Below, in pieces: positions 3,890-24,059 of a stretch of 24,622 nucleotides of DNA. The DNA comes from Anaerolineales bacterium (lineage in GTDB: Bacteria > Chloroflexota > Anaerolineae > 4572-78 > NAK82), in the NCBI GenBank assembly GCA_024643945.1, contig JAHELX010000020.1, positions 1 through 24,622 on the forward strand, given 5' to 3'. The notes under the pieces are model-generated. The model was not told the origin of the DNA and searched no databases. It was given only the letters and a program-made list of their open reading frames with translations. How positions within the stretch are numbered: the stretch's first letter is position 1; every line of letters begins with the position of its first letter. The translations under genes were made by a program, and so were the position numbers.

Positions 3890-3938
3890 CCAAATGTCAG
3901 ACCTCAGACAAATACGCTACTCACGTTGGTGATCAACA

Positions 3939-5990: not shown

Positions 5991-6024
5991 TCCCCGCCCC
6001 CCGAACCCGAAAGGTAGGACAACA

Positions 6025-7152: not shown

Positions 7153-7175
7153 CCTAAGATATGTGGAGCTAAAGC

Positions 7176-7694: not shown

Positions 7695-7710
7695 CCAAGC
7701 GGAGGCTAAT

Positions 7711-8679: not shown

Positions 8680-8681
8680 TG

Positions 8682-8843
8682 TTAGTGGTCAGGGAATCGG
8701 GACTTCCCCTGTGCAGGGGACCGTGGGCAGAGAATCAGGGAATCAGGAAGACACCCGTTTCCAAATTGCCTGACACCTGATTGCCTGACACCTGATTCCC
8801 TGAGTCCCTGAGTCCCGATTCCCTGATCCCCTGATCCCTCACT
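8682..8843. repeat. Gene-less copy of the AATCAGGG snap-back element
   Basis: It begins TAGTGGTCAGGGAATC, like the copy at 7060, and ends TCCCTCACTCGTCA, like the end of the S23-carrying unit at 7694. The left arm contains a palindrome CCCCTGTGCAGGGG (8706-8719) and AATCAGGG units; the right arm holds CTGATTCCCTGAG units and two CCTGACACCTGATT units. It could be an internally deleted or non-autonomous form of the 7060-7694 unit. Confidence 0.8.
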
Positions 8844-8861
8844 CGTCAATGGAGGCAAACT

Positions 8862-9533: not shown

Positions 9534-9571
9534 CCAACAAACTGCAACCCTGTTTGTGAGGAGGCGATCAG

Positions 9572-10024
9572 ATGACGACCATAGCCGTAATCGACGCTTT
9601 TCTGACCCAACACAGATTGGCTGTGGTTGGTGTATCCCGCGGGGGGAAGAAGTTCGGCAATTTGGCCTACAGAGAACTCAAGACCAAAGGCTATCAATTG
9701 TTCCCCATCAACCCCAACGCAGACAGCATAGAGGGCGACCGTTGCTACCCCAGCCTGACGGCATTGCCAGAGCCGGTGGATGGAGTCCTGATTGTCGTTC
9801 CCCCGGCCGAAACCGAGCAAGTGGTGCAGGACGCGGCTGCGGCCAAGATCCGTCGCGTCTGGATGCAACAAGGCGCCGAATCGGAGGCGGCGATTCGTTT
9901 CTGCCAACAGAACGGCATCGACGTTGTGCATAACGAATGCATCCTCATGTTTGCCGAGCCAACAGCTTTTGGCCATCGTATGCACCGTTGGGTTTGGGGG
10001 CTGCTGGGTAAGCTTCCTCGGTGA
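9572..10024 (+). CDS. CoA-binding domain protein (YccU-like)
   Basis: 150 residues, RBS GAGGAGG before the ATG. It is a Rossmann-like CoA_binding_2 domain: LAVVGVSRGGKKFGNLAYRELKTKGYQLFPINPN, then DGVLIVVPP, then VWMQQGAES and a final DVVHNECILM. This is the short stand-alone form related to the CoA-binding part of succinyl-CoA synthetase alpha. Small proteins of this type are cytosolic and their partners are usually unknown. The stop codon is 10 nt before the start of the threonine-synthase-like gene, suggesting one transcript. Confidence 0.87.
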   Translation: MTTIAVIDAFLTQHRLAVVGVSRGGKKFGNLAYRELKTKGYQLFPINPNADSIEGDRCYPSLTALPEPVDGVLIVVPPAETEQVVQDAAAAKIRRVWMQQGAESEAAIRFCQQNGIDVVHNECILMFAEPTAFGHRMHRWVWGLLGKLPR

Positions 10025-10034
10025 AAGGATTATA

Positions 10035-11315
10035 ATGGACCACATCCTCAGCCTGAAATGTCTGATCTGCGGCAAGGAATACCCTCCCGATCAGGTGGAT
10101 TACGTTTGTCCCGACCATGGCGACGACGGCATCCTCGACGTGCAATACGATTACGATCTGATCGGGCGGCGCATCAGCCAGGGTGACCTGCTGCATAGCA
10201 CCAACTACACCATCTGGCGCTATAAGCCGCTGCTCCCCGTGCGACCCGATTCCCCAGTCCCACCCCTGGCCGTTGGCTGGACACCACTCTACCGGGCTGA
10301 TCGACTGGCCGCCGAGTTGGGCCTCCAACATGTGTGGGTCAAAGATGACGGCCGCCAGCCGACTGCGTCCTTCAAGGACCGGGCCAGTGCCATCGCGGTC
10401 GTTAAGGCCCAAGAGAAAGGGGCCGAGACCATCACCACCGCCAGCACCGGCAACGCGGCTGCTGCCCTGGCCGGTCTGTGCGCCAGCGTCAATCAGCCCA
10501 ACGTCATCTTTGTGCCCGAGAGCGCTCCCCAGGCCAAAGTCGCCCAGTTGCTCGTCTTTGGCTCCACGGTGATGCTGGTCAAGGGTACCTACGACGACGC
10601 CTTTGAGCTATGTCTGCTTGCCGCCAAAGAATATGGATGGTACAATCGAAACACGGCCTATAATCCTTATATGACCGAGGGCAAAAAGACGGCCAGCTAC
10701 GAGATTTGTGAGCAACTCGGCTGGCAGGCCCCGGATCGCATCTTCGTCAGCGTGGGCGATGGCTGTATCATCGGTGGCCTACATAAGGGACTAAAAGACT
10801 TGCTCGTCTTGAGTTGGATTGACCGCATGCCCAGGCTGATGGGCGTACAGGCGACCGGCTCGGCCTACATGGCTCAGGCCTGGGCCAATGCTGAAGATGT
10901 GCTGACCAAGCCTCCCATCCAGGCCCACACCCTCGCTGACAGCATCAGCGCTGGCCTGCCCCGTGACCGGCTCAAGGCCATGGCCGCCGTGCGCGAGACC
11001 GGCGGCGCGTACCTCCAGGTCAGTGACGAAGAGATCCTGGCTGCCATCCCTGCCCTGGCGCGTGGCTGTGGCGTCTTCGCCGAACCGGCTGGCGCCGCCG
11101 CTTATGCCGGCCTGCTGAAGGCCGTGGATGAGGGGTTAGTGCATCCCGAGGAGCGGGTCGTGGTGCTAGTCACCGGCAACGGGCTCAAGGACGTGACCAG
11201 CGCTATGAAGTCTGTGGAACAAATCGGCACACGGGCATACAACGTTGAGCCCAATCTGGAGGATTTGAAGCAAGTGGTTGAGAGTATAGGGGCGAAGAGA
11301 GGACTAAATGGATAA
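10035..11315 (+). CDS. Threonine synthase-like PLP enzyme with N-terminal zinc-ribbon-like segment
   Basis: 426 residues from ATG 10035, chosen because GAAAGGA precedes it by 5 nt and the upstream gene ends at 10024. Seen: Cys9-x2-Cys12 and Cys25 in a short knuckle, PTASFKDR with PLP lysine Lys114, STGNAAAALAG near 143-153, and VSVGDGCIIGGL near 236-247 as the phosphate-binding loop. This fits threonine synthase or a related fold-type-II ammonia-lyase/synthase. No homoserine-pathway genes are nearby. In E. coli ygeW loci the equivalent PLP gene is diaminopropionate ammonia-lyase (ygeX), but the motifs here are nearer to threonine synthase. The stop overlaps the next ATG by 8 nt. Confidence 0.88.
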   Translation: MDHILSLKCLICGKEYPPDQVDYVCPDHGDDGILDVQYDYDLIGRRISQGDLLHSTNYTIWRYKPLLPVRPDSPVPPLAVGWTPLYRADRLAAELGLQHVWVKDDGRQPTASFKDRASAIAVVKAQEKGAETITTASTGNAAAALAGLCASVNQPNVIFVPESAPQAKVAQLLVFGSTVMLVKGTYDDAFELCLLAAKEYGWYNRNTAYNPYMTEGKKTASYEICEQLGWQAPDRIFVSVGDGCIIGGLHKGLKDLLVLSWIDRMPRLMGVQATGSAYMAQAWANAEDVLTKPPIQAHTLADSISAGLPRDRLKAMAAVRETGGAYLQVSDEEILAAIPALARGCGVFAEPAGAAAYAGLLKAVDEGLVHPEERVVVLVTGNGLKDVTSAMKSVEQIGTRAYNVEPNLEDLKQVVESIGAKRGLNG

Positions 11316-11577
11316 GAGGCTCAAAGAGACAATCGCAGCGTTCCGCATCCCGCCTAAAATGGTCCACAACGACCGGGGGGAAACGGTGGAGGTCATTCTC
11401 AGCTACGATGAATATAAGGCCTTCTTACGTTTCCTGGCCGATTATGTGGACTGGGCGTCCCTGCCTGGCTACCTGCAAGATGCGATTGACCATCTGCTGG
11501 CTGAAGAGGCGCGAGCAGAGCCGGGAGAGTCCATCCCACTGCGTAAGGCGCTGCGCGAGACCGGCGACTTGCCCTGA
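11308..11577 (+). CDS. Putative type II antitoxin (Phd/YefM-like)
   Basis: 89 residues. The segment VEVILSYDEYKAFLRFL resembles the conserved strand-helix of Phd/YefM-type antitoxins, and the acidic C-terminal tail (EEARAEPGESIPLRKALRETGDLP) would be the toxin-binding part. The ATG overlaps the end of the threonine-synthase-like gene by 8 nt and the stop overlaps the toxin start by 1 nt (TGATG), so it is translationally coupled on both sides. Assignment rests mainly on the downstream RelE-like gene. A promoter inside the upstream gene would be expected for autoregulation but is not evident. Confidence 0.7.
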   Translation: MDKRLKETIAAFRIPPKMVHNDRGETVEVILSYDEYKAFLRFLADYVDWASLPGYLQDAIDHLLAEEARAEPGESIPLRKALRETGDLP

Positions 11578-11834
11578 TGAGTTACCAGGTTTTGCTGCGC
11601 CCAGGGGCTGAACGTCAGCGTCGTAAGTTCGATGACCAGATACGACGCCGCGTCAACGAAGCTTTGTTGTCGCTGGAGGAAACACCACGCCCACCTGGTG
11701 CTATCAAACTGCGTGGCGGGGAAAACGAGTGGCGTGTCTGCGTAGGGGACTATCGCATCATCTACGAAATTGACGACGATGAACGTCTGATAATCATTCT
11801 GCGCATCAGCCACCGTCGGGAGGCGTATCGCTGA
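11577..11834 (+). CDS. RelE/ParE-family toxin
   Basis: 85 residues. It has the compact RelE/ParE pattern: a basic first helix (PGAERQRRKFDDQIRRRVNEAL), KLRGGENEWRVCVGDYRIIYEI, and a final IILRISHRREAYR. In RelE-type toxins the Arg of GDYR and the C-terminal His/Arg/Tyr cluster act in ribosome-dependent mRNA cleavage; ParE members poison gyrase instead. The GDYRIIYEI...SHRREAYR form favours the RelE/mRNA-interferase branch. It would be held inactive by the protein encoded just upstream. Confidence 0.88.
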   Translation: MSYQVLLRPGAERQRRKFDDQIRRRVNEALLSLEETPRPPGAIKLRGGENEWRVCVGDYRIIYEIDDDERLIIILRISHRREAYR

Positions 11835-12295
11835 AATCTATCACCCGCGCCCAAATCCAGTGGACTATCACTGCGGTTTTGGCGATAGGCTGGGTACTGT
11901 GGATGACCCTGCGCCCCGACTCCACGGTCGATACCATTAACCTGGTGCCCTTCCGCGATCACGCGTGGGCAGTACGCTGTCTGTTGAGCGATTGCTCTGA
12001 CATCACCGATGCCGTCTATTCCATCGTGGTTGATGTATTGGGCAATGTGGTTGTCTTCTTTCCCATCGGTCTCTCGCTGGCCGGCGTGCTGGGGGGCTTG
12101 CCATACCGGCGTCGCCTCGGTACGGCTGTCGCCATAGGTGCGGCTTTGAGCATTAGCATCGAACTCATCCAATTGACCATTCCCAGTCGTGCCACTGATG
12201 TGGACGACGTATTATTCAACACCATCGGCACAGCGCTGGGAGCCGCATTCCTGATTGTGGCTCAACACCGGCGCAGACGCAATGGAGAATGGTAA
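11831..12295 (+). CDS. VanZ-like membrane protein
   Basis: The VanZ-like core carries an LRPD motif after a first hydrophobic helix, INLVPFRD, IVVDVLGNVVVFFPIGLSLAGV, then ISIELIQLTIPSRATDVDDVLFNTIGTALGAAF, a typical VanZ family ending (ELIQ...R..DvDDvl.NtiG). About four membrane spans. The usual ATG/GTG/TTG search gives a TTG start at 11879 that cuts the first helix. A CTG at 11831 follows GGGAGG by 7 nt and overlaps the toxin stop as CTGA, like an ATGA coupling, and restores a full first helix; I prefer it, giving about 154 residues, but the start is uncertain. The family is named for teicoplanin resistance; the role here is unknown, probably cell-envelope related. Confidence 0.75.
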   Translation: MKSITRAQIQWTITAVLAIGWVLWMTLRPDSTVDTINLVPFRDHAWAVRCLLSDCSDITDAVYSIVVDVLGNVVVFFPIGLSLAGVLGGLPYRRRLGTAVAIGAALSISIELIQLTIPSRATDVDDVLFNTIGTALGAAFLIVAQHRRRRNGEW

Positions 12296-12301
12296 CTGCT
12301 C

Positions 12302-12361
12302 ACCCTTCCGGAGCACCCAATGGTCCCCTGCACAGGGGACCATTGGGTGCTCCGGAAGGGT
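12302..12361. repeat. Perfect 60-bp palindrome with 29-bp arms
   Basis: Arms 12302-12330 and 12333-12361 are exact reverse complements around a 2-bp centre (CA). The core GGTCCCCTGCACAGGGGA also occurs, as its complement, at 8704-8721. There is no run of T after it, so it is not a classical terminator, although the hairpin could still protect or end the upstream transcript. Confidence 0.9.
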
Positions 12362-12387
12362 AGGCTGAGTAATTACGGAGACTGAAC

Positions 12388-13377
12388 GTGAACCAAAGAC
12401 CTCGCTATTCTATCATTGCTCCCTGTTTCAACGAAGAAGGCGTGTTGCACGAACTTCACCGGCGCATCCGCCAGGTGATGGATCAAACGGGCGAGCCGTG
12501 GGAGTTGGTGTTGGTTAATGATGGCAGTCGAGACCGCACGCCGGAAATCATGCGCGAATTGCACGCCGCCGACCCCCGGGTCAAGATGGTCGATTTCGCC
12601 CGCAACTTTGGCCACCAGATCGCTGTCACTGCCGGGCTGGACTACGCCCGAGGCGACGCCGTCGTCATCATCGACGCCGACCTGCAAGACCCGCCCGAAG
12701 TTATTTTGGATATGATTGGTCGCTGGAAAGAAGGGTACGAGGTGGTCTACGCTGTGCGCACCCAGCGCAAAGGCGAGACCTGGTTCAAAGAGTTCACAGC
12801 CAAGCTCTTCTACCGTATCATTTATCGCATCACCGATGTCGACATCCCCCTCGACACCGGGGACTTCCGCTTGATGGACCGCAAGGCTGTCGAGGCCATC
12901 AAGGGAATGAGAGAGCGCCATCGTTTCATCCGGGGCATGACAAGCTGGGTCGGCTTCCGGCAGGCCGGGGTGTACTACGTGCGCGAGGAGCGCTTCGCCG
13001 GCGAGACCCATTATCCCTTCCGCAAGATGTTCAAATTCGCGCTGGATGCCATTACCGGCTTCAGCTATGCCCCTCTGCAACTTGCCACTTACCTGGGCTT
13101 CACCATCGCCGGCCTCAGCGCGGTGGCCGCGCTGCTCGTTGTCTACGCCCGGCTCTTCATGGGGGCCGCTCCCTTTTACGGCCAGGCGACCACATTGGTG
13201 GCGGTCCTCTTTTTAGGTGGCATACAACTTATCACCCTGGGCATCATCGGCGAATATCTGGGTCGCATCTATGACGAGGTGAAAGGTCGCCCGCTATACA
13301 TCGTGCGCGAAGCGTTAGGCTTTGATGAGCGAATCAGCGAATCAGCAAATCGGCAAATCGGCAAGCCGCTGAACTGA
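12388..13377 (+). CDS. Family 2 glycosyltransferase, polyprenyl-phosphate type (DPM1/GtrB-like)
   Basis: 329 residues, GTG start with GGAGA 6 nt upstream. Seen: N-terminal [22 protein letters not shown], the DxD metal motif DAD at 96-98 followed by [19 protein letters not shown] near 152-164, and two C-terminal membrane spans at about 230-256 and 265-290 ending [19 protein letters not shown]. This is the layout of GtrB/ArnC-type enzymes that move a sugar from a nucleotide donor to a polyprenyl phosphate at the cytoplasmic membrane. The last residues ([16 protein letters not shown]) are encoded by a short GCGAATCA repeat, so the tail has been lengthened by a repeat. Confidence 0.9.
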
Positions 13378-13431
13378 GTTCAGCCTTTGGACGCGCTGAC
13401 TCGCTGACCCGCACCTGCGATGGGGCAGGTG
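13325..13431. repeat. Snap-back repeat GCGAATCAGC family plus two small hairpins
   Basis: The left arm GAGCGAATCAGCGAATCAGC (13327-13346) and following AAATCGGC units face a right arm GCTGACTCGCTGACCCGC (13394-13411). Between them a perfect hairpin GCTGAAC-TGA-GTTCAGC (13368-13384) has the glycosyltransferase stop codon as its loop. A further hairpin CACCTGC/GCAGGTG follows at 13412-13431. None is followed by a T-run. Confidence 0.68.
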
Positions 13432-13460
13432 TTCGCATATTTGACATCTGAGGTTTCCTA

Positions 13461-14924
13461 ATGATTGACTTGACAATCGATGAAGAACGACTGAACAGAG
13501 CGGTGCAACGAGCGCGAGAGCGCAACATCATTATCCCTACCTTCAAACAGCAGAAGGACCCCAGTCTGGTGCCTGATGCCATTCAGGCCCGGCTGAGAAA
13601 CATCGGCTTGTGGGACGTTACCTCCCTCAACCTCTTCCGTATCACCTGGAAGAACGAGCCGCTCCCCTCTGGGGGTGGCTTCAATGGCGTCAATTACCTG
13701 GAGTTTCCTGAAACCCTCACTGGCGTTGAGACGCGCATTATCGCGTTAGTGGGCAAATGGTTTCCCACCGGTGCGCACAAGGTGGGCGCCGCCTTCGGTT
13801 GCCTGGTGCCGCGTCTGGTCACCGGCCAATTCGATCCCACCACTCAAAAAGCAGTCTGGCCCTCTACCGGTAACTACTGCCGCGGTGGAGCTTACGATTC
13901 GGCGCTGCTGGCTTGCGAGTCCATCGCCATTTTGCCCGAGGGGATGAGCAAAGAACGCTTTGACTGGCTGGCTTCCATCGCCGGCGAAGTGATCAAAACC
14001 CCCGGCACCGAAAGCAACGTCAAAGAGATCTTCGACAAGTGCTGGGAACTGCGTCGTTCGGGCGAGGACCTGGTCATCTTCAACCAGTTTGACGAGTTTG
14101 GCAATCACCTCTGGCACTACGATGTCACCGGCCACGCCATGCAAGAGGTGTTGGAGCGCGAGATGCGCCCGACCGATACCTACCGGGGTGTGGTGCTGAC
14201 CACTGGCTCGGCCGGCACCATCGGCTGTGGCGATTACATGAAGCAACTCTTCCCTACCAGCAAAGTTGCCGCCAGCGAGGCGCTGCAATGCCCGACCCTG
14301 CTGATCAACGGCTTCGGCGCCCACCGCATCGAAGGCATCGGCGACAAGCACGTTCCCTGGATCCACAACGTCAAAAACACTGACATGGTGGTGGCCATTG
14401 ACGATGAAGCCACCATGAGCCTCATTCGCCTCTTCAATGAACCTGCCGGACAGGAATACCTGGCAACTCAGGGCGTGCCCCATGACTTCATGGCCCAATT
14501 GCCCTTGCTGGGCATCTCAGGCGTGGCCAACCTGCTCTCCTCCATCAAATTTGCCAAATACTACGAGCTCGGCGAACACGACGTCGTGTTAACCGTCCTG
14601 ACCGACTCGATGGAGATGTACCAGAGTCGCCTGCGCGAACTGACCCAGGAACGAGGTGACTATACTCCCCACGATGCCGTCGCCGCCTACCACCAACACC
14701 TGCTGGGCCAGAGCATCGACTACGTCCAGGAGTTGACCTACTACGACCGCAAACGCATCCACAATCTCAAATACTACACCTGGGTCGAACAGCAGGGCAA
14801 GACCTACGAGGAGATTCAGGATCAGTGGTATAAACCCGACTACTGGACCGGGGTCCACAACCAGATAGAGGAAATTGACGCCTTGATCGAGGCCTTCAAT
14901 GAGAGAACCGGCCTGTTGAAATAG
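13461..14924 (+). CDS. Fold-type-II PLP-dependent enzyme (TrpB/cysteine synthase-like), function unassigned
   Basis: 487 residues. PTGAHKVGAAFG puts the PLP lysine at Lys107 in a TrpB-like GAHK setting. PSTGNYCRGGA at 134-144 matches the substrate-binding STGN loop. TTGSAGTIGCGDYMK near 248-261 resembles the phosphate loop of cysteine synthases, and GDKHVPWIHNV follows later. It is longer than cysteine synthase, with a roughly 110-residue C-terminal extension rich in Tyr and acidic residues (Y-H-Q, YVQELTYYDRKRIHNLKYYTW). This is a distinct PLP family that I cannot assign to a reaction. Its place beside a threonine-synthase-like gene and the carbamoyltransferases suggests amino acid or diamino acid catabolism (inference). 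No clear RBS is seen (TGAGGTTTCC precedes ATG). Confidence 0.82.
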   Translation: MIDLTIDEERLNRAVQRARERNIIIPTFKQQKDPSLVPDAIQARLRNIGLWDVTSLNLFRITWKNEPLPSGGGFNGVNYLEFPETLTGVETRIIALVGKWFPTGAHKVGAAFGCLVPRLVTGQFDPTTQKAVWPSTGNYCRGGAYDSALLACESIAILPEGMSKERFDWLASIAGEVIKTPGTESNVKEIFDKCWELRRSGEDLVIFNQFDEFGNHLWHYDVTGHAMQEVLEREMRPTDTYRGVVLTTGSAGTIGCGDYMKQLFPTSKVAASEALQCPTLLINGFGAHRIEGIGDKHVPWIHNVKNTDMVVAIDDEATMSLIRLFNEPAGQEYLATQGVPHDFMAQLPLLGISGVANLLSSIKFAKYYELGEHDVVLTVLTDSMEMYQSRLRELTQERGDYTPHDAVAAYHQHLLGQSIDYVQELTYYDRKRIHNLKYYTWVEQQGKTYEEIQDQWYKPDYWTGVHNQIEEIDALIEAFNERTGLLK

Positions 14925-14929
14925 TAACC

Positions 14930-15090
14930 GGTAGATTGGTAAATTGGTAAATTGGTAGGTTGGTAAATTGGTAGGTTATAGGCTGGTAGATTGATAAAAT
15001 GGCAGATGGTCTACTGTCTACCAACCTACCAATTTACCAATCTACCAACCTACCAGTTTACCAACCTACCAATCTACCAACCTACCAACC
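14930..15090. repeat. Snap-back repeat, TTGGTAAA/TTGGTAGG family
   Basis: The left arm (14930-15000) is made of 8-bp TTGGTAAA/TTGGTAGG/TTGGTAGA units. A spacer (about 15001-15015) is followed by a right arm (15016-15090) of CTACCAAC/TTTACCAA units, the exact reverse-complement vocabulary. It fills the whole gap between the PLP enzyme and the next gene and runs up to the next ATG, leaving no normal ribosome-binding site. Confidence 0.9.
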
Positions 15091-15744
15091 ATGCACCCCG
15101 ACGACCGAGTCCTGGTAGCCATCATGAATAGCCAGCGTGACTGGGCCCTGGTTCAAGACGAGGGCTGGTATCGGCTGCCCACCAAACACGCCCCATCCGA
15201 TTCGCCCCACTTCGAGTGGCTGGCCTTCTATTTCACGAAAGTTTTCAAGGATGACAAGTGGGCCATCCACTACTATGCGCCCATCCAAGGCCACGAGCTG
15301 GTCACACGCCGCGACCTGATCCCCTCCGAGCCGGACCACCCCCGCGCCGGCCAATGGTATTATAAGCTGCAACTTGGCCCCCTGGAGCACAAGCTGCCTC
15401 CCATCGTCAGCCTCCGCTGGCGACGCATTACCTTCATCCTCACCACGGGTGACCGCTTTATGAACGCGCTCGAAATCAACGACCTCTTTGAGCAGGAGAG
15501 CCCAGTTGGCCACCTATATGTGAAACTAAAGGAGATGGGTATTCAAGTTGAGCGGGAATGGTGGATCGACGAGGAAGGGATCGCCTACATGGTGGACCTG
15601 GCCCTGCCCGTCGATGATGGCTGGCTGCCGGTGACCTTCGGGGATCGGCCCGGCCCGGCCGGCGGCCTGCGTTTCGCCGCCGAGTCCGAGCCGGAGGCCT
15701 GCCTGCGGGAGATACAGGCCAGGCTGCGTACCTTTGAAGCCTGA
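15091..15744 (+). CDS. Unrecognised protein, possibly with a degenerate restriction-endonuclease-like C-terminus
   Basis: 217 residues, not assignable with confidence. The N-terminal half has a WYRLP...FEWLAFYFTKVF...IHYYAPI...LV pattern, then DHPRAGQWYYKLQLGPLEHKLPPI and RRITFILTTGDRFMNALEINDLF. The C-terminal part has VEREWWIDEEGIAYMVDLALPVDDGWLPVTFGD. The spacing recalls DUF559-type endonuclease folds (Asp of VDLAL), but the expected Glu-x-Lys or Glu-x-Asp strand is not intact, so catalysis is doubtful. The ATG abuts the TTGGTAAA repeat, with no ribosome-binding site, so expression or the start is uncertain. A decayed sequence resembling its residues about 135-155 lies just downstream. Confidence 0.6.
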   Translation: MHPDDRVLVAIMNSQRDWALVQDEGWYRLPTKHAPSDSPHFEWLAFYFTKVFKDDKWAIHYYAPIQGHELVTRRDLIPSEPDHPRAGQWYYKLQLGPLEHKLPPIVSLRWRRITFILTTGDRFMNALEINDLFEQESPVGHLYVKLKEMGIQVEREWWIDEEGIAYMVDLALPVDDGWLPVTFGDRPGPAGGLRFAAESEPEACLREIQARLRTFEA

Positions 15745-15749
15745 TCTCT

Positions 15750-15905
15750 GCTGAGGAGACACTCTTATATCAGCCGCCCAGCTTCACCAATCAGCGTACA
15801 GAAGTTGCGGCAGAGGAAAATGTTCAGCTTCGTGCAAGAGAGCCCGGCGGCCACCTCCGAGTGAAGCTAAGAGAGATTGACATCCCGGTCAAGCGGGAGC
15901 GGCTA
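15750..15905 (+). pseudogene. Decayed fragment resembling the preceding gene
   Basis: The frame contains GGHLRVKLREIDIPVKRE, matching GHLYVKLKEMGIQVERE of the gene at 15091-15744. By eye about 37 of 54 bases agree between 15509-15562 and the corresponding stretch near 15849-15902. No start codon or full domain is present. The similarity stops where the cassette array begins (attC-like site at 15901-15960), as if the second copy had been cut there. Confidence 0.42.
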
Positions 15906-15960
15906 ACGATAAAGCTCAGCGGCGCGGCTTGTCCGCGTCCGCTGGAGCGCCTTGTTCGGC
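15901..15960 (-). other. attC-like recombination site 4 (end of nuclease cassette)
   Basis: Read on the minus strand: R'' GCCGAAC (15960-15954), then a stem CAGCGG-a-CGCGG pairing with CCGCG-CCGCTG around ACAAG, with single unpaired bases, then R' GTTAGCC (15907-15901). This is the layout of a short classical attC: AAC/GTT ends, unpaired spacer, extrahelical bases on one strand. The partner gene ends inside it. The outer bases GTTCGGCAT (15954-15962, plus strand) are the reverse complement of the cassette start at 17398-17406. Confidence 0.8.
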
Positions 15961-16293
15961 ATTCGCGTTTTTGGAGTCCGGGAGTGTGCCGTGTTTTAGT
16001 CGATATTCGTAGGTCTGTTCCTTCTTGCATCGGTTTACGATGATTGTCTCCTCGATGGGTGCTCCCATCGTCCAATAGACCATTCCATCTTCATCGTAAT
16101 ACGTGATGCGTTTCCGATAGAAGTTCCCCTCGTATCCGTATGTCCGGATATGCCGGACAAGCTGAATGAACAGATCTTCGTCAACGCGGTCACGAACGAT
16201 GTACTCGTGTGGCCAAGTGAGCGCATAGGTCTTGGCAAACGTCCAGTTCTGCTCAGTCACAAAAGCCTTTAGGTTACTGGGGAACTTCATCAT
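15916..16293 (-). CDS. Small conserved cassette protein, partner of the nuclease-like gene
   Basis: 125 residues from the ATG ATG pair at 16293, preceded by AGGAAAG. It overlaps the end of the upstream nuclease-like gene by 20 nt, so it is translationally coupled. The central part is strongly patterned: LTWPHEYIVRDRVDEDLFIQLVRHIRTYGYEGNFYRKRITYYDEDGMVYWTMG, then PIEETIIVNRCKKEQTYEYRLKHGTLP. I recognise this as a recurring accessory-gene family but know of no assigned function. The C-terminal tail (NAEQGAPADADKPRR) is encoded by the attC-like site, a common situation for cassette genes. It may be an immunity, specificity or regulatory partner of the nuclease (inference). Confidence 0.78.
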   Translation of the reverse strand: MMKFPSNLKAFVTEQNWTFAKTYALTWPHEYIVRDRVDEDLFIQLVRHIRTYGYEGNFYRKRITYYDEDGMVYWTMGAPIEETIIVNRCKKEQTYEYRLKHGTLPDSKNANAEQGAPADADKPRR

Positions 16294-17386
16294 CTCTTTC
16301 CTGTTCCACGCTCGCCATAGTCTTAGTCTTCGGCGGCAGTGTACCAAGTACTGCGGCAATTGCCTTAAGGTCATCTACCAAGGATCGGATGACACGTGCC
16401 TTTTCTTCGCCGACTGGAATCTCGAGCGCTATCGCGAAATCCTGATCGTTCGTAGCAGTCAAGATGCGCTTTTTGGCGGCCCACGGCTCAATCAATTGGC
16501 GAACATCCTGTGCCCGTCCGAATTCCCCTTCTGAGAAGAGAAGCCACAACGGTGTCGCCCCATGCGACTTCCAGAAACCAAAATGAATTCCGAACCATCC
16601 GCCGGCACCTCGATCGTCTGATACCCAGACGTATCGGCCGATTCGATCCCAAGATGCCTGCGGGCGAAGTCCATTAACGCTTAGAATGTTTTCTGTGACA
16701 GCGTATTCAACGGTTGCCTGGATAATGGAATTGAGCTGAAGAATGAATGCAGGTGTTCGTTGATCTGATAATTCCACATTGGAGACAGGGGCAAAAGCGT
16801 CGTTGTCTGCAGCGTCGCATAGCGCTCGTAATTGAACAAGATCGGCTCTAGCACGGGGATCATCAACAGCCTCGTGTTCCAAAACCGACAACATGTTTTC
16901 CCATGAAGTGAGCGCAAGGACTGGTCCAAGCTGGGTGGTGGCAGATCGAGCGATACCGGCGGTGGCATCACCCTCTGAAAATGAAATCGCGGCGTCGAGA
17001 AGTCTCCGACTCAACTCCCGCCATAATGTCTGCTCGCGGGCGGCTGGCGCAACCACAAGGAGAACCGTTGGCTGAGAATAGGCGGCGAGTTGCTTCAGAT
17101 ACGAAATCGGCTGGTTGTCCGTCAGTCCTGCCCAGAACTTGTTCTCAACAAAAACACGTGGTTCAGTGTCAGCGAATCCCCACATATCGGGGCGGACTGC
17201 ACCCTCGGTCTGCTGAGTCTTGAAACGGAGCAGCGGGAGATCGGGGATGATGCCCCGAAGAAGCTTTGTCATACCATGTCGCGCGGCGTCACTTGATTCC
17301 AGAACGTATGAAAGAGCGTCCGTTGCCACGTCCTCGTTTACCTTCGAGAAACGCTTCTGAATAATATAGCTGAATACGGTATGCAT
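16274..17386 (-). CDS. PD-(D/E)XK nuclease-like protein, first gene of a two-gene cassette
   Basis: 370 residues, ATG 17386 preceded by GAGGAGA at good spacing. Residues about 66-95 give the nuclease core: RPDMWGF (Asp of PD), then VFVENKFWAGLTDNQP with the Glu-x-Lys pair, followed by ISYLKQLAAY and a LLVVAP strand. This fits a PD-(D/E)XK fold of the kind found in accessory and defence loci. The C-terminal two-thirds (a WVSDDRGAGGWFGIHFGFWKS region and a long helical end) are not recognised. The cassette boundary (G^TTCGGC at 17406) is 20 nt upstream of the start codon. A role in anti-phage defence or DNA modification sensing is inferred only from the fold and cassette setting. Confidence 0.8.
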   Translation of the reverse strand: MHTVFSYIIQKRFSKVNEDVATDALSYVLESSDAARHGMTKLLRGIIPDLPLLRFKTQQTEGAVRPDMWGFADTEPRVFVENKFWAGLTDNQPISYLKQLAAYSQPTVLLVVAPAAREQTLWRELSRRLLDAAISFSEGDATAGIARSATTQLGPVLALTSWENMLSVLEHEAVDDPRARADLVQLRALCDAADNDAFAPVSNVELSDQRTPAFILQLNSIIQATVEYAVTENILSVNGLRPQASWDRIGRYVWVSDDRGAGGWFGIHFGFWKSHGATPLWLLFSEGEFGRAQDVRQLIEPWAAKKRILTATNDQDFAIALEIPVGEEKARVIRSLVDDLKAIAAVLGTLPPKTKTMASVEQERDDEVPQ

Positions 17387-18049
17387 CGATTCTCCTCATG
17401 CCGAACTATATGATTATCTGGAATAGTCTTCCGCTTAGATGTCTCTGACGGGGTAATATACGAAATTATCTTAAAGATAAAACATGGATAGCAACGGTAC
17501 GTTCTTGAGGGACTTGATGAATACCTATAACAGCCATCCCTGAGGAACCACAGCAAGTACCTTACACGTCCACGATCTGGCAGGCTAAAGTCGGCCAGGC
17601 TCGCTAGGTGGTCGTATCCATAGGCGTTCTATCAGGCTGCTTGGCGAGAATCTCTTTGCATCTCTCGAAGATTGCCCACAGGCCAACTTTTGACTGCGCT
17701 GGGCGAAGTTTCACTATATTTGTATCTGTATTATAGTATAGCACACGTGCACCTCGGCTTCAATAGGAAGTAACTCCCTTGACCGAATGACCGAGCCAGA
17801 CGCTAAACAAGCCAGGGTCGCAATTTGCGGCCCTGTTAATTGCGCTTGGGCGAAGGGTTGGGTTGGTGAGCCGGTGGAGAATCCCAGGAAAATGGTGAGG
17901 GTGGCTCTATAGAAGGAGTTTTTAGACCTCGGTTGGTATAGTCGGCACATCAAGCGGCTCGCGTCGGGAAGTGTTACAGTAACACCAGCCGGGCGGTTAG
18001 CACAAAGCCTTTTTGTGGATCGTGCTCAGTCGTCTTTGAACGGTATGTC
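17387..18049. other. About 660 bp without a supported gene, between two cassettes
   Basis: No convincing coding frame. Present: the cassette junction GTTCGGC (minus strand, 17406-17400) preceded by the AT-rich AATCATATA; a TTATCTTAAAGATAA palindrome near 17466-17480; a 46-codon minus-strand frame at 17604-17744 (GTG start, ends MDTTT) of doubtful status; a promoter-like pair (17735-17763); and a perfect palindrome GTGTTACAGTAACAC at 17971-17985. By cassette logic it begins at the GTTTGCA of site 3, but no hairpin complementary to that start is found at its other end, so this cassette may have lost its own attC. Confidence 0.6.
17735..17763 (-). promoter_or_regulatory. Promoter-like sequence upstream of the nuclease cassette
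   Basis: On the minus strand, TTGAAG (17763-17758) and TATACT (17740-17735) are 17 bp apart, with an overlapping TATAAT. It lies about 350 nt upstream of the nuclease-like gene and could serve as its promoter or drive the small frame at 17604-17744. No terminator lies obviously between. Confidence 0.35.
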
Positions 18050-18160
18050 TGCAAACGCTAGAGCCTGCCGCCGCACTCGAGTTTGGGGGCGGTACAACCA
18101 TCGGGACGAGCCAAACACCTGGGAGCAGAGCGCGGCGTGGTCAGCAGGCGGGTGTTTGCC
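18050..18160 (-). other. attC-like recombination site 3
   Basis: Minus strand: R'' GGCAAAC (18160-18154) and R' GTTTGCA (18056-18050). The inner stem pairs CTGC...CGCCGC.CTC with GAG.GCGGCG-GCAG, leaving a 6-base bulge on one strand. It follows the stop codon of the gene ending at 18173. The ten bases GTTTGCCGAA at 18154-18163 (plus strand) are the exact reverse complement of this cassette's own start at 18915-18924. Confidence 0.75.
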
Positions 18161-18172
18161 GAAGTGTGCCTT

Positions 18173-18889
18173 CTAGCAGTCACCAGAGATTGTGTGGCCT
18201 GTGGCCTTTAACCACTTGCGCCAAGCCTTGTACAAACCATGATATCCGTCTCTCAATCGCTTAACATCTCCTGAATCGGTCGGATCAATAGTTGGACGAA
18301 TCACAACTTTATCATTGACTATGTCTAGTTTAACAACCTGTTCCCCCTCGTGTTTCACCTCGTAGGCTGCGTCAAACTCGCTGACAACAGTTTCTAACTG
18401 GCTACAAAGCTCCGTCAGTGCCCTTAGCTGACGGATGTCCTTTGAGAACCAGCGAGCCAGTCCGTATCTGCCAATGAAGGAAAAGTTGCAGATATCTTCA
18501 ATAACTGGCCTGACATACAGATTGAACATATCCCATCTATCAGTCTTAGGATCTGGCTTCCCTTCTCGATTAGCAATGCATGGTTGCCCATCTGCATCCT
18601 TTGCAAAATGGACAAGGCAGGGCCATGCATCCTCTCTGAATTTGAAGTCATTCCTTTTCCAGATTCGGTCAAGATTGTCTATGATGACCCCTAAAGAATA
18701 TCTATATCTATTTCTTAGTTCGCTGCGCTTCTCAGACTTAACGATGTCTTGAGTCGCTATTGCCGTCTTCTTCACACGTTTATCTGTATAACCCCGGAAT
18801 TGATCAAGGGATAGAAATAGACTAAGCAAAATGTCGAGCACAAATCCTATGCCAACTCCCGCTAACAGGAAAGCAATATCCTTTTCCAT
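18173..18889 (-). CDS. Unrecognised cassette protein with N-terminal membrane anchor
   Basis: 238 residues from ATG 18889. A longer frame opens at 19093, but its first 68 codons read straight through attC-like site 2, so they are unlikely to be used; an AAGGGGG stretch precedes 18889. Residues about 5-28 (AFLLAGVGIGFVLDILLSLFLSL) form one membrane segment. The remainder is soluble and charged, with WKRNDFKFREDAWPCLVHFAKD, WDMFNLYVRPVIEDICNFSFIGRYG and a helical RQLRALTELCSQLETVVSEF. No known domain is recognised. Its AT content looks higher than that of the metabolic genes. It is the sole gene of its cassette. Confidence 0.7.
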   Translation of the reverse strand: MEKDIAFLLAGVGIGFVLDILLSLFLSLDQFRGYTDKRVKKTAIATQDIVKSEKRSELRNRYRYSLGVIIDNLDRIWKRNDFKFREDAWPCLVHFAKDADGQPCIANREGKPDPKTDRWDMFNLYVRPVIEDICNFSFIGRYGLARWFSKDIRQLRALTELCSQLETVVSEFDAAYEVKHEGEQVVKLDIVNDKVVIRPTIDPTDSGDVKRLRDGYHGLYKAWRKWLKATGHTISGDC

Positions 18890-18917
18890 AAATGTACCGC
18901 CCCCTTTCTGCCATTTC

Positions 18918-19042
18918 GGCAAACGCCTCAGCACGCCGACCACGGCCGATGTGCTCCGCGAAATGAAGTTACCTCCCAATTGTGCTAACCAACTTCCCCA
19001 AAAAGCCGCGTACGTGGCGTGGTCGGCGTGTGTTTGTTCTGC
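18918..19042 (-). other. attC-like recombination site 2
   Basis: Minus strand: R'' GCAGAAC (19042-19036), a 13-bp perfect stem CACGCCGACCACG/CGTGGTCGGCGTG, an unpaired centre of about 65 nt, CTGAGGC, and R' GTTTGCC (18924-18918). It is clearly related in sequence to site 1 (shared ACACACGCCGAC and GCGGCTTTT). The outer sequence at 19036-19055 is complementary to the cassette start at 20274-20288 over all 15 bases, apart from a 5-base insertion. Confidence 0.82.
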
Positions 19043-19099
19043 GTTCGTGCATGCCGCCTTTTCCTTTGCCTTTGACTCATGTTTGGAGACCAACTATTA

Positions 19100-20212
19100 T
19101 CATCTTCCAAAGAGTAGCCAACGATATTTCCTCTCTTTGAGGATACTAGTGACCTCAAGTCCAACTCCTAATGGGGTCACGGTCAACAGTGATATGGGCA
19201 AACCCATAAGGAACTCTGCAACGCCTATAGGAACAGAGAGAAAAGTAACCCACATTCCTATCTTCTTGTACTTTCCTATGTCCTCGATAGCAGCATTTGC
19301 CTCTCTAATCTCCGCGCGTATCGCATCCTCAGACCCGATTTCACCAGCACGGAGCTTTGTACACCACTTGGAAATCTTCTCCCGAAAATTTCTTATTCTT
19401 GAGTCATTCCTTAGCCTAAGAACATCTTCCATCGTATCGGTTTTGGGTATTGTCAGGGTCTCTTTCATGTAAATACCTAGCGCAAGTCTTGTGTTGGGGT
19501 CGAAAACCTGCTTATCAATCCCTGCACCCACTTTCGGGACTCGTCTGATGTTCGAAAAAATTGGTACGTTGAGTTGAGCCGATGCTTCCAAGAGGTTTCT
19601 GATGTGACCATAGGAATATTGAATTTTCCGTCCTAGCTCAAAATCAGATTTGGTTCGACGTTGAGCGACTTCCACCTGATCTTTGAACATTTCGACAAGC
19701 GAAGGACTATCATCCTGTTTTCTCTTACGGCTTTGGGACGAGCCGAAGATTTTTTCGAGCGATGGCTGTAATCGCTCTGCTAACAGTATCACATTCCCAA
19801 GATACATCGCATTGACATCAGGCAGCAGAATGTCAAATTGGTCTGGTGTAAGATTGAAGCCCTTTCTCTCTAGGTCGGCTAGTAGCAACCCCTTGATACT
19901 TCTCGCATGTTCTTCCTCTACAGTTACTTGATTCCAGGTGCTCGGAACGATTTCCAGTAGCCCCAGCTGGCTCAACTGGTCAAACTCTGTGTTATCAAAC
20001 CAAGAAACTGTATAGACCTTGTCGTAAAGCAACAACATCTCTAACGCTTTTTGACCGACGCGAGGATTCCGCGCTTTGTTGAGAATACCTGTTGTATAGT
20101 CCGAGGGGAATGTGATTTTTGCGTAACCGCTTTCCAACGCCTTCGCCAGCAAACCGTTGGTATACGGTTCATCCAAGATGATCCCAGGAAGGGCTTGTTT
20201 CTGCTTTCGCAT
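19100..20212 (-). CDS. Unrecognised cassette protein with hydrophobic C-terminus
   Basis: 370 residues, ATG 20212 with GTGAGGAG about 9-12 nt upstream. It starts MRKQKQALPGIILDEPYTNGLLAKALESGY and continues largely helical. Residues about 163-172 are a basic, low-complexity RKRKQDD region. Residues near 260-275 read TIPKTDTMEDVLRLRNDSRIRNFREKISKW. The last 50 residues hold two hydrophobic segments (MWVTFLSVPIGVAEFLMGL and SLLTVTPLGVGLEV). No catalytic motif is evident, so a helical sensor or effector anchored in the membrane is possible but only a guess. It is the sole gene of its cassette. Confidence 0.75.
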   Translation of the reverse strand: MRKQKQALPGIILDEPYTNGLLAKALESGYAKITFPSDYTTGILNKARNPRVGQKALEMLLLYDKVYTVSWFDNTEFDQLSQLGLLEIVPSTWNQVTVEEEHARSIKGLLLADLERKGFNLTPDQFDILLPDVNAMYLGNVILLAERLQPSLEKIFGSSQSRKRKQDDSPSLVEMFKDQVEVAQRRTKSDFELGRKIQYSYGHIRNLLEASAQLNVPIFSNIRRVPKVGAGIDKQVFDPNTRLALGIYMKETLTIPKTDTMEDVLRLRNDSRIRNFREKISKWCTKLRAGEIGSEDAIRAEIREANAAIEDIGKYKKIGMWVTFLSVPIGVAEFLMGLPISLLTVTPLGVGLEVTSILKERKYRWLLFGR

Positions 20213-20281
20213 TTCATACTCCTCACAATTCGGCGTTTACTCTGCGACTGATTCGCGCCATTCTCTTTGCAAAGGCATGCC

Positions 20282-20395
20282 GCAGAACGTTCAGCACGCC
20301 GCAACGGCACGCGGAAATGGCAACGACGTTCACTCTTGCCAACCCGCAATGCCAAAAGCCGCGCGCGTGCCGTTGTCGGCGTGTGTGTGTTCCCT
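20282..20395 (-). other. attC-like recombination site 1
   Basis: Minus strand: R'' GGGAAC (20394-20389), stem CACGCCG-a-CAACGGCACGCG pairing with CGCGTGCCGTTG-CGGCGTG (one extrahelical A), an unpaired centre, CTGAAC, and R' GTTCTGC (20288-20282). The sequence just before R'' also carries TAACAAACG, common at attC left ends. GTTCCCTGACGCGC (20389-20402, plus strand) is the reverse complement of the cassette start at 21147-21160 at 13 of 14 positions. Confidence 0.82.
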
Positions 20396-20418
20396 GACGC
20401 GCACCGTTTGTTACGTTT

Positions 20419-21096
20419 CTACTCTACGCGTTCCAACGCTTTCATGATTTCTTTAGTTTGGGGACGCTCGTATATCCATAAGTAGAAGCGGTCAACATAC
20501 CAAAGCCGCCGATGCATATCGTAACTCAAGTTGTGGTGATGATACTGGTGTTCAATGAGTTTCCATATTTCCCAGCATATCGCGATGAACTTGGAGTAAC
20601 TCAAGTCGTTTTCAATGTAATCGGGCGTAGCATTTGACAGGATGAAATACAATGCCCATTCTGAGCGTTTGTTTTTAATCGCGAAGTGGTCGGGATAAAC
20701 CTTGCACAGTGCCTCACTAAGAATCGAAACGCCCAAATAGGGTCTTTTGCCGACGGCAAGTGCCGAGTCAGCATCACTAGCAGACGGCGCGTTCAAGAGC
20801 ATATTTCGGAACGCGGCTCTGATTTGGTCTGTGGTGTTCTCGCGGACAATATCATCTAAAAGCCCAAACCGCAGCGATTCATGGATAGCCCAGATTTTGT
20901 CATGCAGGAAATTAAGGAAATCTCTGTCTTTCGAGTAGGAGTTGTGCAGAAGAACCTGGGTAAACAGTTCTTGCTCTCGCTCTCCTTCTTTGGTATCGCG
21001 GCGCAATTGGGTATCGTTAACGCATTTGGAAAAATAGTCCGCGACCAACTTCTCCGCTTTTTTTATCTCTGCTTGTGTCAATATGGGTCTGGACAT
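20419..21096 (-). CDS. Unrecognised cassette protein, first cassette
   Basis: 225 residues from ATG 21096, chosen because AGGAG lies 10 nt upstream. An in-frame ATG at 21171 would start upstream of the cassette junction at 21160 and is rejected. The protein is soluble and helical: an N-terminal EIKKAEKLVADYFSK, FLNFLHDKIWAIHESLRFGLLDDI, then a conserved-looking LGVSILSEALCKVYPDHFAIKNKRSEWAL and a C-terminal aromatic stretch DMHRRLWYVDRFYLWIYERP. The YP.xFAIkNkRS segment recalls short motifs of restriction-related proteins but I would not assign a function. It is the sole gene of its cassette. Confidence 0.72.
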   Translation of the reverse strand: MSRPILTQAEIKKAEKLVADYFSKCVNDTQLRRDTKEGEREQELFTQVLLHNSYSKDRDFLNFLHDKIWAIHESLRFGLLDDIVRENTTDQIRAAFRNMLLNAPSASDADSALAVGKRPYLGVSILSEALCKVYPDHFAIKNKRSEWALYFILSNATPDYIENDLSYSKFIAICWEIWKLIEHQYHHHNLSYDMHRRLWYVDRFYLWIYERPQTKEIMKALERVE

Positions 21097-21146
21097 GGCT
21101 TTGATTCTCCTACTCGCGAATTGCGAGCACGTACTGATTTCAAAAG

Positions 21147-21190
21147 GCGTGTCAGGGAACTTATATTTCACGAAACAAAACTTGCGTGAA
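21147..21190 (-). other. Upstream boundary of cassette 1, attI-like
   Basis: Minus strand: an inverted repeat TTCACG/CGTGAA (21190-21185 and 21172-21167) is followed by AAATATAAG and the core G^TTCCCTGACACGC (from 21160). There is no attC-like hairpin before the core, as expected of an attI rather than an attC. The AT-rich lead-in resembles the one before the second boundary (AATCATATAG^TTCGGC at 17406). Confidence 0.45.
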
Positions 21191-21283
21191 GCACGGCATT
21201 TTCCTCATGCTTTCCGCAATACCTGTTGCGGGAATCCAGGAAAGGGAGTTTCTCCTGTGCACAGGTTCTATTCATGTGCCCTC

Positions 21284-21418
21284 CTACAACGGCAAATTAT
21301 CCAGCGGACTCTTAATCACCACGCCCTCGGGTCCGCATGTTTCGCTTCGGACGAAACAAGAAACGTCACCCACTTGACCAAGCCGCCTGCCTGTGGTAGG
21401 GAATGGAATTTTGGCCAG
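21284..21418 (-). pseudogene. 44-codon C-terminal gene remnant next to the insertion sequence
   Basis: An open minus-strand frame from the IS end to a TAG at 21284, ending CGPEGVVIKSPLDNLPL. The G-V-x-x-S-P-L-D-x-L-P ending resembles the tail of integron integrases (IntI1 ends with GVRSPLDALP, established), and it sits immediately upstream of the cassette array. The residues before it do not show the expected tyrosine-containing YTHVL segment, so the match is weak. Alternatively it is the out-of-context tail of the STAND-like gene interrupted by the IS, because the frames can be joined. Confidence 0.3.
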
Positions 21419-21504
21419 TGCGTATTCCGATGAAATCGTCCACGAGTTCCGGGGATGCCGTCCACCTGTCAGAGCGAAGCGACGCTAGCATAAGCATTAT
21501 ACAA

Positions 21505-22254
21505 TCAAGCGGTCGGCATGGGCAAGGCAGAATCGACCTTGCGCCGTGACTCTCCTTTGAGAGTCAGCCGGTAGGCATTGTGAACCAGACGATCCAGGAT
21601 GGCGTCTGCGATGGTAGGATCGGGGAAGCGGGCGTGCCACTCGGCGATGGGCACCTGGGTGGCCACCAGTGTAGAGGATCGGCCGTAGCGATCATCCAGG
21701 ATCTCGAGCAAGTCCTGGGACTGGGGGCGGGTCAAGGGATCCCGCAGCCAGTCATCGAGGACCAGGAGTTGGACACGGGCGAAGGCGTCAAGCAGGTTGG
21801 GATAGGAGCCATCGGCGTGAGCGAGCGCGGTCTGGTGCAAGAGGCGGGAGGTGCGCTGGTAACGGACATGGGAGTAATGGCGGCAGGCAGCGTGGGCCAG
21901 GGCGCAGGCCAGGAAGGTCTTGCCGACGCCGGTGGGGCCAAGGACGAGAATGTTGAGGTGTTGGCGGACCCACTCGCCCTGGGCCAGTTGCAGAACGAGG
22001 CGACGGTCCAGGCCACGCGCGGGAGAGAGATCGAGGTCTTCGATGGTGGCTGGTAGCGACAGCCGAGCCGCCTTGAGGCGTCGTTGCAGACGGTTGTTGT
22101 CGCGGTGAGTGCACTCGCGGTCGATGAGCAGGCCGAGGCGATCCTCGAAGGGGAGGTCCGTGTATTGAGGGTTGTGAAGTTGCTCTTCGAGCGCGGCACG
22201 AAAAGCAGGCAGGCGGAGTTGGGTCAGCTTGTCAAGCAGGGGTTGGGTCAACAT
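21505..22254 (-). CDS. istB: IS21 helper ATPase IstB
   Basis: 249 residues. It has an N-terminal helical region (LLDKLTQLRLPAFRAALEEQL), Walker A GPTGVGKT near 105-112, FLACALAHAACRHYSHVRY, Walker B LLVLDDW near 164-170 and ATQVPIAEWHARFPDPTIADAILDRLVHNAYRL, the standard IstB/DnaC-like AAA+ order. It assists the IstA transposase in target choice and strand transfer. The start lies 11 nt after the istA stop. It appears intact. Confidence 0.95.
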   Translation of the reverse strand: MLTQPLLDKLTQLRLPAFRAALEEQLHNPQYTDLPFEDRLGLLIDRECTHRDNNRLQRRLKAARLSLPATIEDLDLSPARGLDRRLVLQLAQGEWVRQHLNILVLGPTGVGKTFLACALAHAACRHYSHVRYQRTSRLLHQTALAHADGSYPNLLDAFARVQLLVLDDWLRDPLTRPQSQDLLEILDDRYGRSSTLVATQVPIAEWHARFPDPTIADAILDRLVHNAYRLTLKGESRRKVDSALPMPTA

Positions 22255-22265
22255 AGGTCATCTCC

Positions 22266-23804
22266 TCAATGGTAATAGGTTTGGCCACGGATGTTTTCGT
22301 GGGTCTTGGGGGCAACGGTAGGTGCTTCTTCGGGCTCGACCTGGTCGAGCTTGGCATCCAGGATGTTCTTGACGCCCTTGTAGGAGTGAATGCCAGCCCG
22401 AAGAGCCCGGGCACAGGCGGCCTCCAGGCGCTGCTCACCGTAGCGGCTGCCGAGACCCAGCAGGCCCAGACAGGAACGGTAGGCTTGTTGCGGATGTTGG
22501 CGGGAGTCGAGAAGCGCTTGTACAAGTTGGACTGTGTTGGGGCCAATGCTCTGGGCCCAGCGCGTGAAGCGGTCCGGCGACCACTCCAGATACTTCTGAT
22601 GAGCGGGCGGCATATGTTCAGAGAGCGTAGTGTGCCGCCCGGGAGCGTGGGTGCGACGATGGGAAGCGACACGCCGGTTATTGAAGAAGATCTCGATGGT
22701 GGATTGAGTAGCCCGCACGTAGACCTCTTTGTGGATGAGCGTGTGGGAGACACTGTAGTAGTGCTTTTCGAACTCGATGTGGTAGTCGATGTTGACGCGG
22801 GCTTTCTTCCAGATGGCGAATTCGTAGGGCAGTTCAGGAAGAGGCTTGAGGGCCGGTTGGTCCAACCTCTCGAAGAGTTCGCGGCGGGAGCGGCCCAAGT
22901 GCTCCATTTGCCGTGTGTTGAGCTCATCCAGTAGCTCGCGGATGGCTTGATTCAAATCGGCCAGGCTGAAGAAAGTGTAATGGCGCAGACGGGCGAGGAT
23001 CCAGCGCTCGACCACCTGGACGCCCACTTCCACTTTGGCCTTGTCTTTGGGTTTGCGAACGCGGGTCGGAATGACTGCCGTGCCGTAATGTTGGGCCAGG
23101 TCTTGGTAAGTGGGATTCAGGTCGGGCTCATAGCGACAGGGGTGTTTGACACCCGCTTTGAGATTGTCCGGAACGACGATCTCGGGCACACCGCCGAAGA
23201 AGGTGAACATGCGAACGTGGGCGCCAATCCAGTTGGACAACTCCTGGCTCGCATGGGCCTCGGCGTAGGTGTAGTTGCTGGCGCCCAGGACGCCGATGAA
23301 GATCTGGGCTGGGTGCAGTTCGCCGGTGTTAGGGTCGACGATGGGCACCGTTTGACCGGCGTAGTCGACAAAGACTTTCTCCCCACCCTTGTGGGAAAGG
23401 CGCATCGACGGCTTCAGCCGCTTGGCCCATTCGCGATACAGGGCACAGAACTGGCTATACCCGTAGCCATCCGGCTGGGCTTCGCGATACTCGACCCACA
23501 GCAGACGCAGGGTGACACCCTGTTTGCGTAGCTCGGTGTGAATCAGAGACCAGTCAGGAGCGGGGATGACACGTGAACTGGATGGCGCTGAACTGGGGAA
23601 GAGGAGCTCAAACAGCGTATCCTCGCCCAAGTCCGCGGGAAGCGGCCAGCTCAGCCCGGCTTCTTGGGCGCGTCGTAGATACTCGCCAACGGTGCTGTGG
23701 GAGATGGAACAACTGCGAGCGATTGCCCGATTCGACAGTCCACACTCCCACTTCAGACGGAGAACTTCGCCTATTTTGCGCATGGTTAACCTTTCTTGGG
23801 CCAT
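22266..23804 (-). CDS. istA: IS21 transposase IstA
   Basis: 512 residues from ATG 23804, chosen because AAAGGAGG precedes it at 6 nt; a longer in-frame start at 23837 lacks this. An N-terminal helix-turn-helix (WECGLSNRAIARSCSISHSTVGEYLRRA) is followed by the DDE integrase core: FVDYAG (first Asp), VPDNLKAGV (second Asp), and KDKAKVEVGV (Glu). A C-terminal beta-rich region contains HIEFEKHYYSVSHTLIHKEVYVRAT. No frameshift or stop is seen, so the element may be active. Confidence 0.95.
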   Translation of the reverse strand: MAQERLTMRKIGEVLRLKWECGLSNRAIARSCSISHSTVGEYLRRAQEAGLSWPLPADLGEDTLFELLFPSSAPSSSRVIPAPDWSLIHTELRKQGVTLRLLWVEYREAQPDGYGYSQFCALYREWAKRLKPSMRLSHKGGEKVFVDYAGQTVPIVDPNTGELHPAQIFIGVLGASNYTYAEAHASQELSNWIGAHVRMFTFFGGVPEIVVPDNLKAGVKHPCRYEPDLNPTYQDLAQHYGTAVIPTRVRKPKDKAKVEVGVQVVERWILARLRHYTFFSLADLNQAIRELLDELNTRQMEHLGRSRRELFERLDQPALKPLPELPYEFAIWKKARVNIDYHIEFEKHYYSVSHTLIHKEVYVRATQSTIEIFFNNRRVASHRRTHAPGRHTTLSEHMPPAHQKYLEWSPDRFTRWAQSIGPNTVQLVQALLDSRQHPQQAYRSCLGLLGLGSRYGEQRLEAACARALRAGIHSYKGVKNILDAKLDQVEPEEAPTVAPKTHENIRGQTYYH

Positions 23805-23814
23805 CTCTGCCTCC

Positions 23815-24059
23815 TTTGTTGTTCGGAGGCAAAGCATGCCACAACCGTGTCAGGTTAGCCAGCGCCGCTTCCTGCTGGATCAGATTTGCTGTCCAGGATT
23901 CTGGAGCATGCCGTCCACTGATTCCAATCCAAGGCGACCACCGATTCCGGTGTTCCGGAAAAACTGGACGCCATGTTGCCGGAACAGGTGGTCGGCATGG
24001 CCCGGAACAGGTGGTCGGCATCCATCGGAATCGATGGTCGGCATAGCCCGGATTATGCA
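23815..24059. repeat. Right end of the IS21 element with direct repeats
   Basis: No gene. Three CAGGTGGTCGGCAT-like units (about 23985-23999, 24008-24021 and 24031-24043), separated by GCCCGGAA-type spacers, precede the terminal CCGGATTATGCA. More degenerate CGTCCACTGATTCC and CGACCACCGATTCC units lie at about 23910-23950. They are probably transposase-binding sites. Confidence 0.7.

Follow-up and report, generated by a model that had tools for sequence, protein, structure and literature searches.

The 24,622-nucleotide stretch analysed here (the window; contig JAHELX010000020.1 of the Anaerolineales bacterium assembly GCA_024643945.1) carries on its minus strand, from 15901 to 21159, what is almost certainly an array of integron gene cassettes with no integrase linked to it, in a Chloroflexota genome. 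Because no integrase lies within the window, we call the array CALIN-like (cluster of attC sites lacking integron integrase). The initial annotation had placed four minus-strand units with AAC...GTT hairpins here, and both sequence and coordinates agree with it (Table 1). Each unit would be a present or former cassette, made up of a gene or gene pair and then an attC site whose single strand would form a hairpin from which one base protrudes. An integron integrase joins cassettes at G^TT, leaving an inserted cassette to start with one outer end of its attC site and to carry the remainder at its far end. The head of a cassette should therefore correspond to the outer (R'') end of its own attC, a correspondence referred to below as the head rule.

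The pattern that joining at G^TT predicts is present four times. All four units begin at G^TT and open with the complement of the R'' end of their own attC, the uninterrupted match from the TT being 9, 7, 9 and 8 bases in units 1-4, and any other pairing of unit and hairpin gives 3 bases or fewer. The match lengths first reported, which include the core G (13/14, 15/15 with one insertion, here of five bases, 10/10 and 9/9), are borne out by the sequence. The non-unit sequence that follows attC3 matches the attC3 R'' end over 5 bases. Among the 351 minus-strand GTT triplets of the whole window, runs of at least 7 bases occur for attC1, attC2 and attC4 at their unit boundaries only, and for attC3 at its own boundary and once more, at 2516. 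A combined hairpin-plus-head scan of the region, at a threshold of 33 picked after scores had been seen, returned four hairpins, all with a matching head (4/4), and none of 200 first-order Markov simulations gave even one such hairpin. Scored on its plus strand, the region gives 2/4 because the head rule is partly symmetric; the rule therefore leaves orientation unset, and it is gene direction that sets it, all five open reading frames (ORFs) taken as cassette genes lying on the minus strand and reading toward attC.

Relatives were found through a neighbouring gene of the window, and the best 80 of a larger number of matched loci were used. The best locus among these 80, in a Chloroflexi metagenome-assembled genome (MAG; G001, L001), has 90% amino-acid identity over 486 residues of that gene, and its DNA is 79-86% identical to the window over five longer blocks, in accord with the Chloroflexota host first proposed. 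G001 encodes an integron integrase of 321 amino acids (TIGR02249, 482.6 bits vs a cut-off of 265); on its contig C566 (L091) the intact integrase (6270-7235) is followed, on to 7643, by an attI-like AAACAATAG^TTAGGC, the start of the next gene, which from its first residues we take to be PIN-like, and then the contig end. Integrases over the TIGR02249 cut-off were found in 9 of 25 genomes of the order (E ≤ 1e-60). In a phylum sample, 45 of 400 genomes had an integrase at E ≤ 1e-60 and 43 of 400 had one over the cut-off. Most loci leading to the first of these genomes are titled MAG, and misbinning is possible for short contigs, but the contigs that carry several of the relatives' integrases are 0.3 Mb to at least 2.6 Mb long. 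Beside some of them are arrays of attC-like sites. At five loci beside integrases, the head match of 10 of 11 consecutive cassette pairs runs over 8-10 of 10 bases (8-11 when uncapped), and that of the remaining pair over 2. Intact integrons that obey the head rule thus exist in the same order, and long head complementarity is therefore usual for such hosts, that of the window included.

A covariance model of attC (R1) was built from 17 sites of relatives, with no window sequence included. Its consensus stem has 13 pairs, 9 of which vary on both sides, and one unpaired A that is invariant in 17/17 sites. Run on the window with filters off, R1 matched attC4 (E = 2.5e-4) and attC2 (E = 6.6e-3) on the minus strand, each with exactly the ends given in Table 1, and default filters returned the same two. 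A third match (9.8 bits) covers part of attC3 but ends in the wrong place. On 69 control loci (L002-L070 of the 80; 1,067,031 bases, default filters) the model gave one match, of 13.1 bits. attC2 and attC4, two of the four, are thus confirmed by the model as predicted sites; for attC1, with its bulged A, and for attC3 the evidence is the head rule together with geometry. R1 sites at E ≤ 0.001 occur in 13 of the 25 genomes of the order, five of these 13 being the source of the model's sites, and are also found in G024. In G024, a block starting 23 bases past one R1 site is 77% identical over 759 bases to a contig of G019, which suggests exchange within the order.

The hairpins are less telling alone, and the heads are what distinguish the four units. 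An unguided scan for AAC...GTT hairpins recovers all four attC hairpins, not all of them top-ranked. The repeat-rich segments 4719-4833 and 14922-15062 score above every one, including attC4 (36) and attC3 (34.0), and attC3 also ranks below 23784-23860 (35.5). The two repeat-rich segments consist of short-unit inverted or tandem repeats (ACGTTTTACG; GGTTGGTAGATT) and look like simple repeats, not attC. Predicted DNA folds of attC1-4 have z scores of -3.4, -2.0, -2.0 and -2.2 on the minus strand and of -3.7, -2.3, -1.0 and -2.1 on the plus strand, the value of -1.0 marking attC3 as weak. The imperfect hairpins described initially, with unpaired centres and extrahelical bases, were thus reproduced for attC1, attC2 (without the bulged A) and attC4, but for attC3 weakly. 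The A that is invariant in the R1 stem is unpaired in the attC1 and attC4 folds, and in attC3 by manual pairing only.

The flank that follows unit 4 provides a further line of evidence. Its 81 bases recur twice in G024, with 94% identity over 79 bases and 90% over 52; across 396 genomes of the class, with two candidates scored per genome, six others gave weak matches alone (E 0.001-0.01). At one G024 locus (L140) the flank is preceded by another gene, presumably methyltransferase-like from its sequence, and a hairpin. At the other (L139) it is preceded by a different gene end, which we take from its sequence to be that of a catalase-peroxidase, and a third hairpin; a 100-base assembly gap lies just upstream of this gene end. 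L139 is orthologous to the window, with homologues of 13461-14924 (in part, 89% of 331 residues) and of 15091-15744 (81% at the DNA level). Differing gene-plus-hairpin units set against one flank, at the expected point, are what cassette exchange would predict. The search for the hairpins beside other genes or for empty sites, proposed at the outset, gave other hairpin-ended genes at this flank in G024 but no empty site in the 25 genomes of the order. In the window, 15091-15744 and 15826-15906 appear to be a gene and an adjoining second, truncated copy, and more copies stand among short genes in G024 (L139, L140).

Several observations weigh against the cassette-array interpretation. R1 fails to recover attC1 or attC3 in the window even with filters off, and the bulged A is absent from attC2. 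In the hairpin scan one of four shuffles scored 37, over attC3 and attC4. R1 scores neither the L139 nor the L140 hairpin (E up to 5), the L140 stretch gives a fold no more stable than its shuffled versions do (z +0.65), and the L139 core is decayed, with GATCAG in place of GTTAG. At the R1 sites of G024 no head run above 5 was seen, although for some of these sites the R'' start used was misplaced or an AAC is absent, so that the result decides nothing; G001, though integrase-bearing, has no R1 site. Nothing in the order's 25 genomes matches 18031-21500 or the body of unit 4, and in 31 genomes (25 of them integrase-bearing) the unit 1 and 2 proteins found no match, in a search with no positive control. 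Finally, no attC is visible after the unit-4 gene pair in G440. The initial integron and CALIN reading nevertheless gains support from the exact R1 matches at two of four sites, from the relatives' integrons with their head rule, and from the G024 junctions. The array looks real, a product of integron recombination and a further example of a known element type.

Where its integrase went is less certain. A tblastn search of the window with the G001 integrase found no IntI, the best hit (E = 0.005, at 12550-12750) falling inside the span of a glycosyltransferase ORF, and within the window no intI with attI stands beside the array. The claim that an intact integrase is missing thus holds for these 24.6 kb but was overstated beyond them, since the rest of the genome may carry one. 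The most likely source of the integrase is a Chloroflexota integron like those of the relatives, which would once have stood beside the array or elsewhere in the genome, and the cassettes may remain open to recombination in trans.

One possibility, to which we give less than even weight, is that the array began as a complete integron, lost its integrase or had it displaced, for instance by arrival of the IS21 element upstream of unit 1, and then decayed in place. A gap of 346 bases separates the IS21 genes from unit 1, and in the relatives it is this upstream side that carries intI. No integrase remnant was seen in the window with the G001 query, however, and the string before unit 1 (AAATATAAG^TT) is by eye not recognisable as an attI-like site of the relatives. 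A+T-rich sequence precedes both unit 1 and unit 4, and by eye neither string clearly resembles those sites.

We hold as tentatively that units 1-3 and, separately, unit 4 were inserted in trans off target, at the non-classical, attG-like sites ATATAAG^TT and CATATAG^TT. Both groups start after A+T-rich sequence without visible attC and are separated by 650 ORF-free bases, and G024, which has a 5.35-Mb gapped scaffold and no integrase at E ≤ 1e-60, also holds R1 sites. Insertion at attG has been described in E. coli (Loot 2024, as cited in passages of PMC12444791 and PMC11389934). On the other hand, a query with 14900-21500 matched only within 18030-17766 and 15946-15021, in 18 of the 25 genomes of the order, so that no empty site was found in these genomes. 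The flank after unit 4 also lies behind hairpin-ended genes in G024, and therefore looks like an old cassette border and not a virgin site.

A broader version appears unlikely to us, namely that genomes of the order receive cassettes through the trans action of their own integrases at G^TT sites other than attC; integrase-free genomes such as G024, and perhaps that of the window, would therefore hold small cassette islands, and the exchange pool would be recognisable by a partly lineage-specific attC type that starts with AACAA, has the invariant bulged A and shows 8-11 bases of head complementarity. That the units are no integron product, and that their hairpins are chance structures or transcription terminators between unrelated genes, is very improbable: the R1 misses at attC1 and attC3, the weak attC3 fold and the shuffle that scored 37 would suit it, but a hairpin with a matching head arose in 0/200 simulations, terminators do not predict the head rule, and R1 matches two sites exactly.

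Table 1. Predicted features of the cassette array and its surroundings (window coordinates).
Feature	Position	Strand	Remarks
Cassette unit 1	20288..21159	-	head TTCCCTGA from 21159; one ORF; attC1
ORF of unit 1	20419..21096	-	small protein family; predicted fold resembles HhH DNA glycosylases
attC1, 114 bases	20282..20395	-	long stem, one bulged A (GCCG-A-C); missed by R1
Cassette unit 2	18924..20287	-	head TTCTGCGG; one ORF; attC2
ORF of unit 2, 370 amino acids	19100..20212	-	no family match
attC2, 125 bases	18918..19042	-	R1 19.3 bits; without bulged A
Cassette unit 3	18056..18923	-	head TTTGCCGA; one ORF; attC3
ORF of unit 3, 238 amino acids	18173..18889	-	no family match over cut-off
attC3, 111 bases	18050..18160	-	weakest fold; not correctly recovered by R1
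Inter-unit stretch, 650 bases, units 3/4	17406..18055	.	without ORF of 80 amino acids
Cassette unit 4	15907..17405	-	head TTCGGCAT; two ORFs; attC4
ORF a of unit 4, 370 amino acids	16274..17386	-	D67, E81, N82, K83 invariant in 14 aligned relatives
ORF b of unit 4, 124 amino acids	15916..16290	-	stop inside attC4
attC4, 60 bases, short type	15901..15960	-	R1 25.6 bits; bulged A present
Flank after unit 4 (TTAGCCGCTCCCGCTTGACC...)	15826..15906	-	follows two other hairpin-ended genes in G024
IS21-type istB 21505-22254, istA 22266-23837	21505..23837	-	upstream of array

The G+C content of the units is 47-53%, vs 58% for window positions 1-15082. None of the five array proteins has a family over cut-off. 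The invariant residues of ORF a form a pattern that we take to be that of PD-(D/E)XK nucleases. The pair of ORFs a and b, nuclease-like protein and 124-residue partner, is widespread (787 relatives of ORF a among scored candidates) and is also adjacent in G440; in the class, 17 of 392 Chloroflexota genomes have a match, 14 of the 17 with two or three. In the stretch that separates unit 3 from unit 4, segments of about 17766-18030 match dispersed stretches in G024 and G025, and about 17766-17907 is a repeat, dispersed and intergenic, whose GGGCCGCAAATTGCG core is terminator-like and which is common to the window, G024 and G025 (L141, L142, L144, L145). An open frame lies beyond the IS21 element, on its upstream side.

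Arrays of this kind had been thought little described in Chloroflexota, which overstates the case: passages of PMC8618304 and PMC9668308 already list the phylum among those bearing integrons, and one of PMC12772301 places a Chloroflexota MAG among the hosts of an integrase-associated gene module. In PMC8352920 attC models cover 11 taxa, and neither the passage listing these taxa nor the main text names Chloroflexota. Integron research centres mostly on Gammaproteobacteria, which account for 93% of the complete integrons in the genome set of PMC9024848, as one passage there states. Since its five proteins have no family over cut-off, an array such as this one is a reservoir of untested functions, the nuclease-like gene pair included. 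attC4 resembles what we take to be the proteobacterial type of short attC (about 60 bases, with a AACAAGGCGCTC...CGTTAG layout), unlike which it stands in a Chloroflexota genome and adjoins long attC sites. As in a CALIN, the attC sites lie less than 4 kb apart (spacing 0.76-2.1 kb for the four, 2.96 kb between the two supported by R1), with one or two genes each and no integrase in the window; unlike a CALIN, the host is a member of the Chloroflexota, and an attC model from its own order misses two of the four sites. The complete integrons of the order (G012, G013, G015, G019 and G021) differ in having intI and an attI-like site, neither of which the window has, whereas they share with the array the head rule and, for part of the sites, the stem geometry and bulged A.
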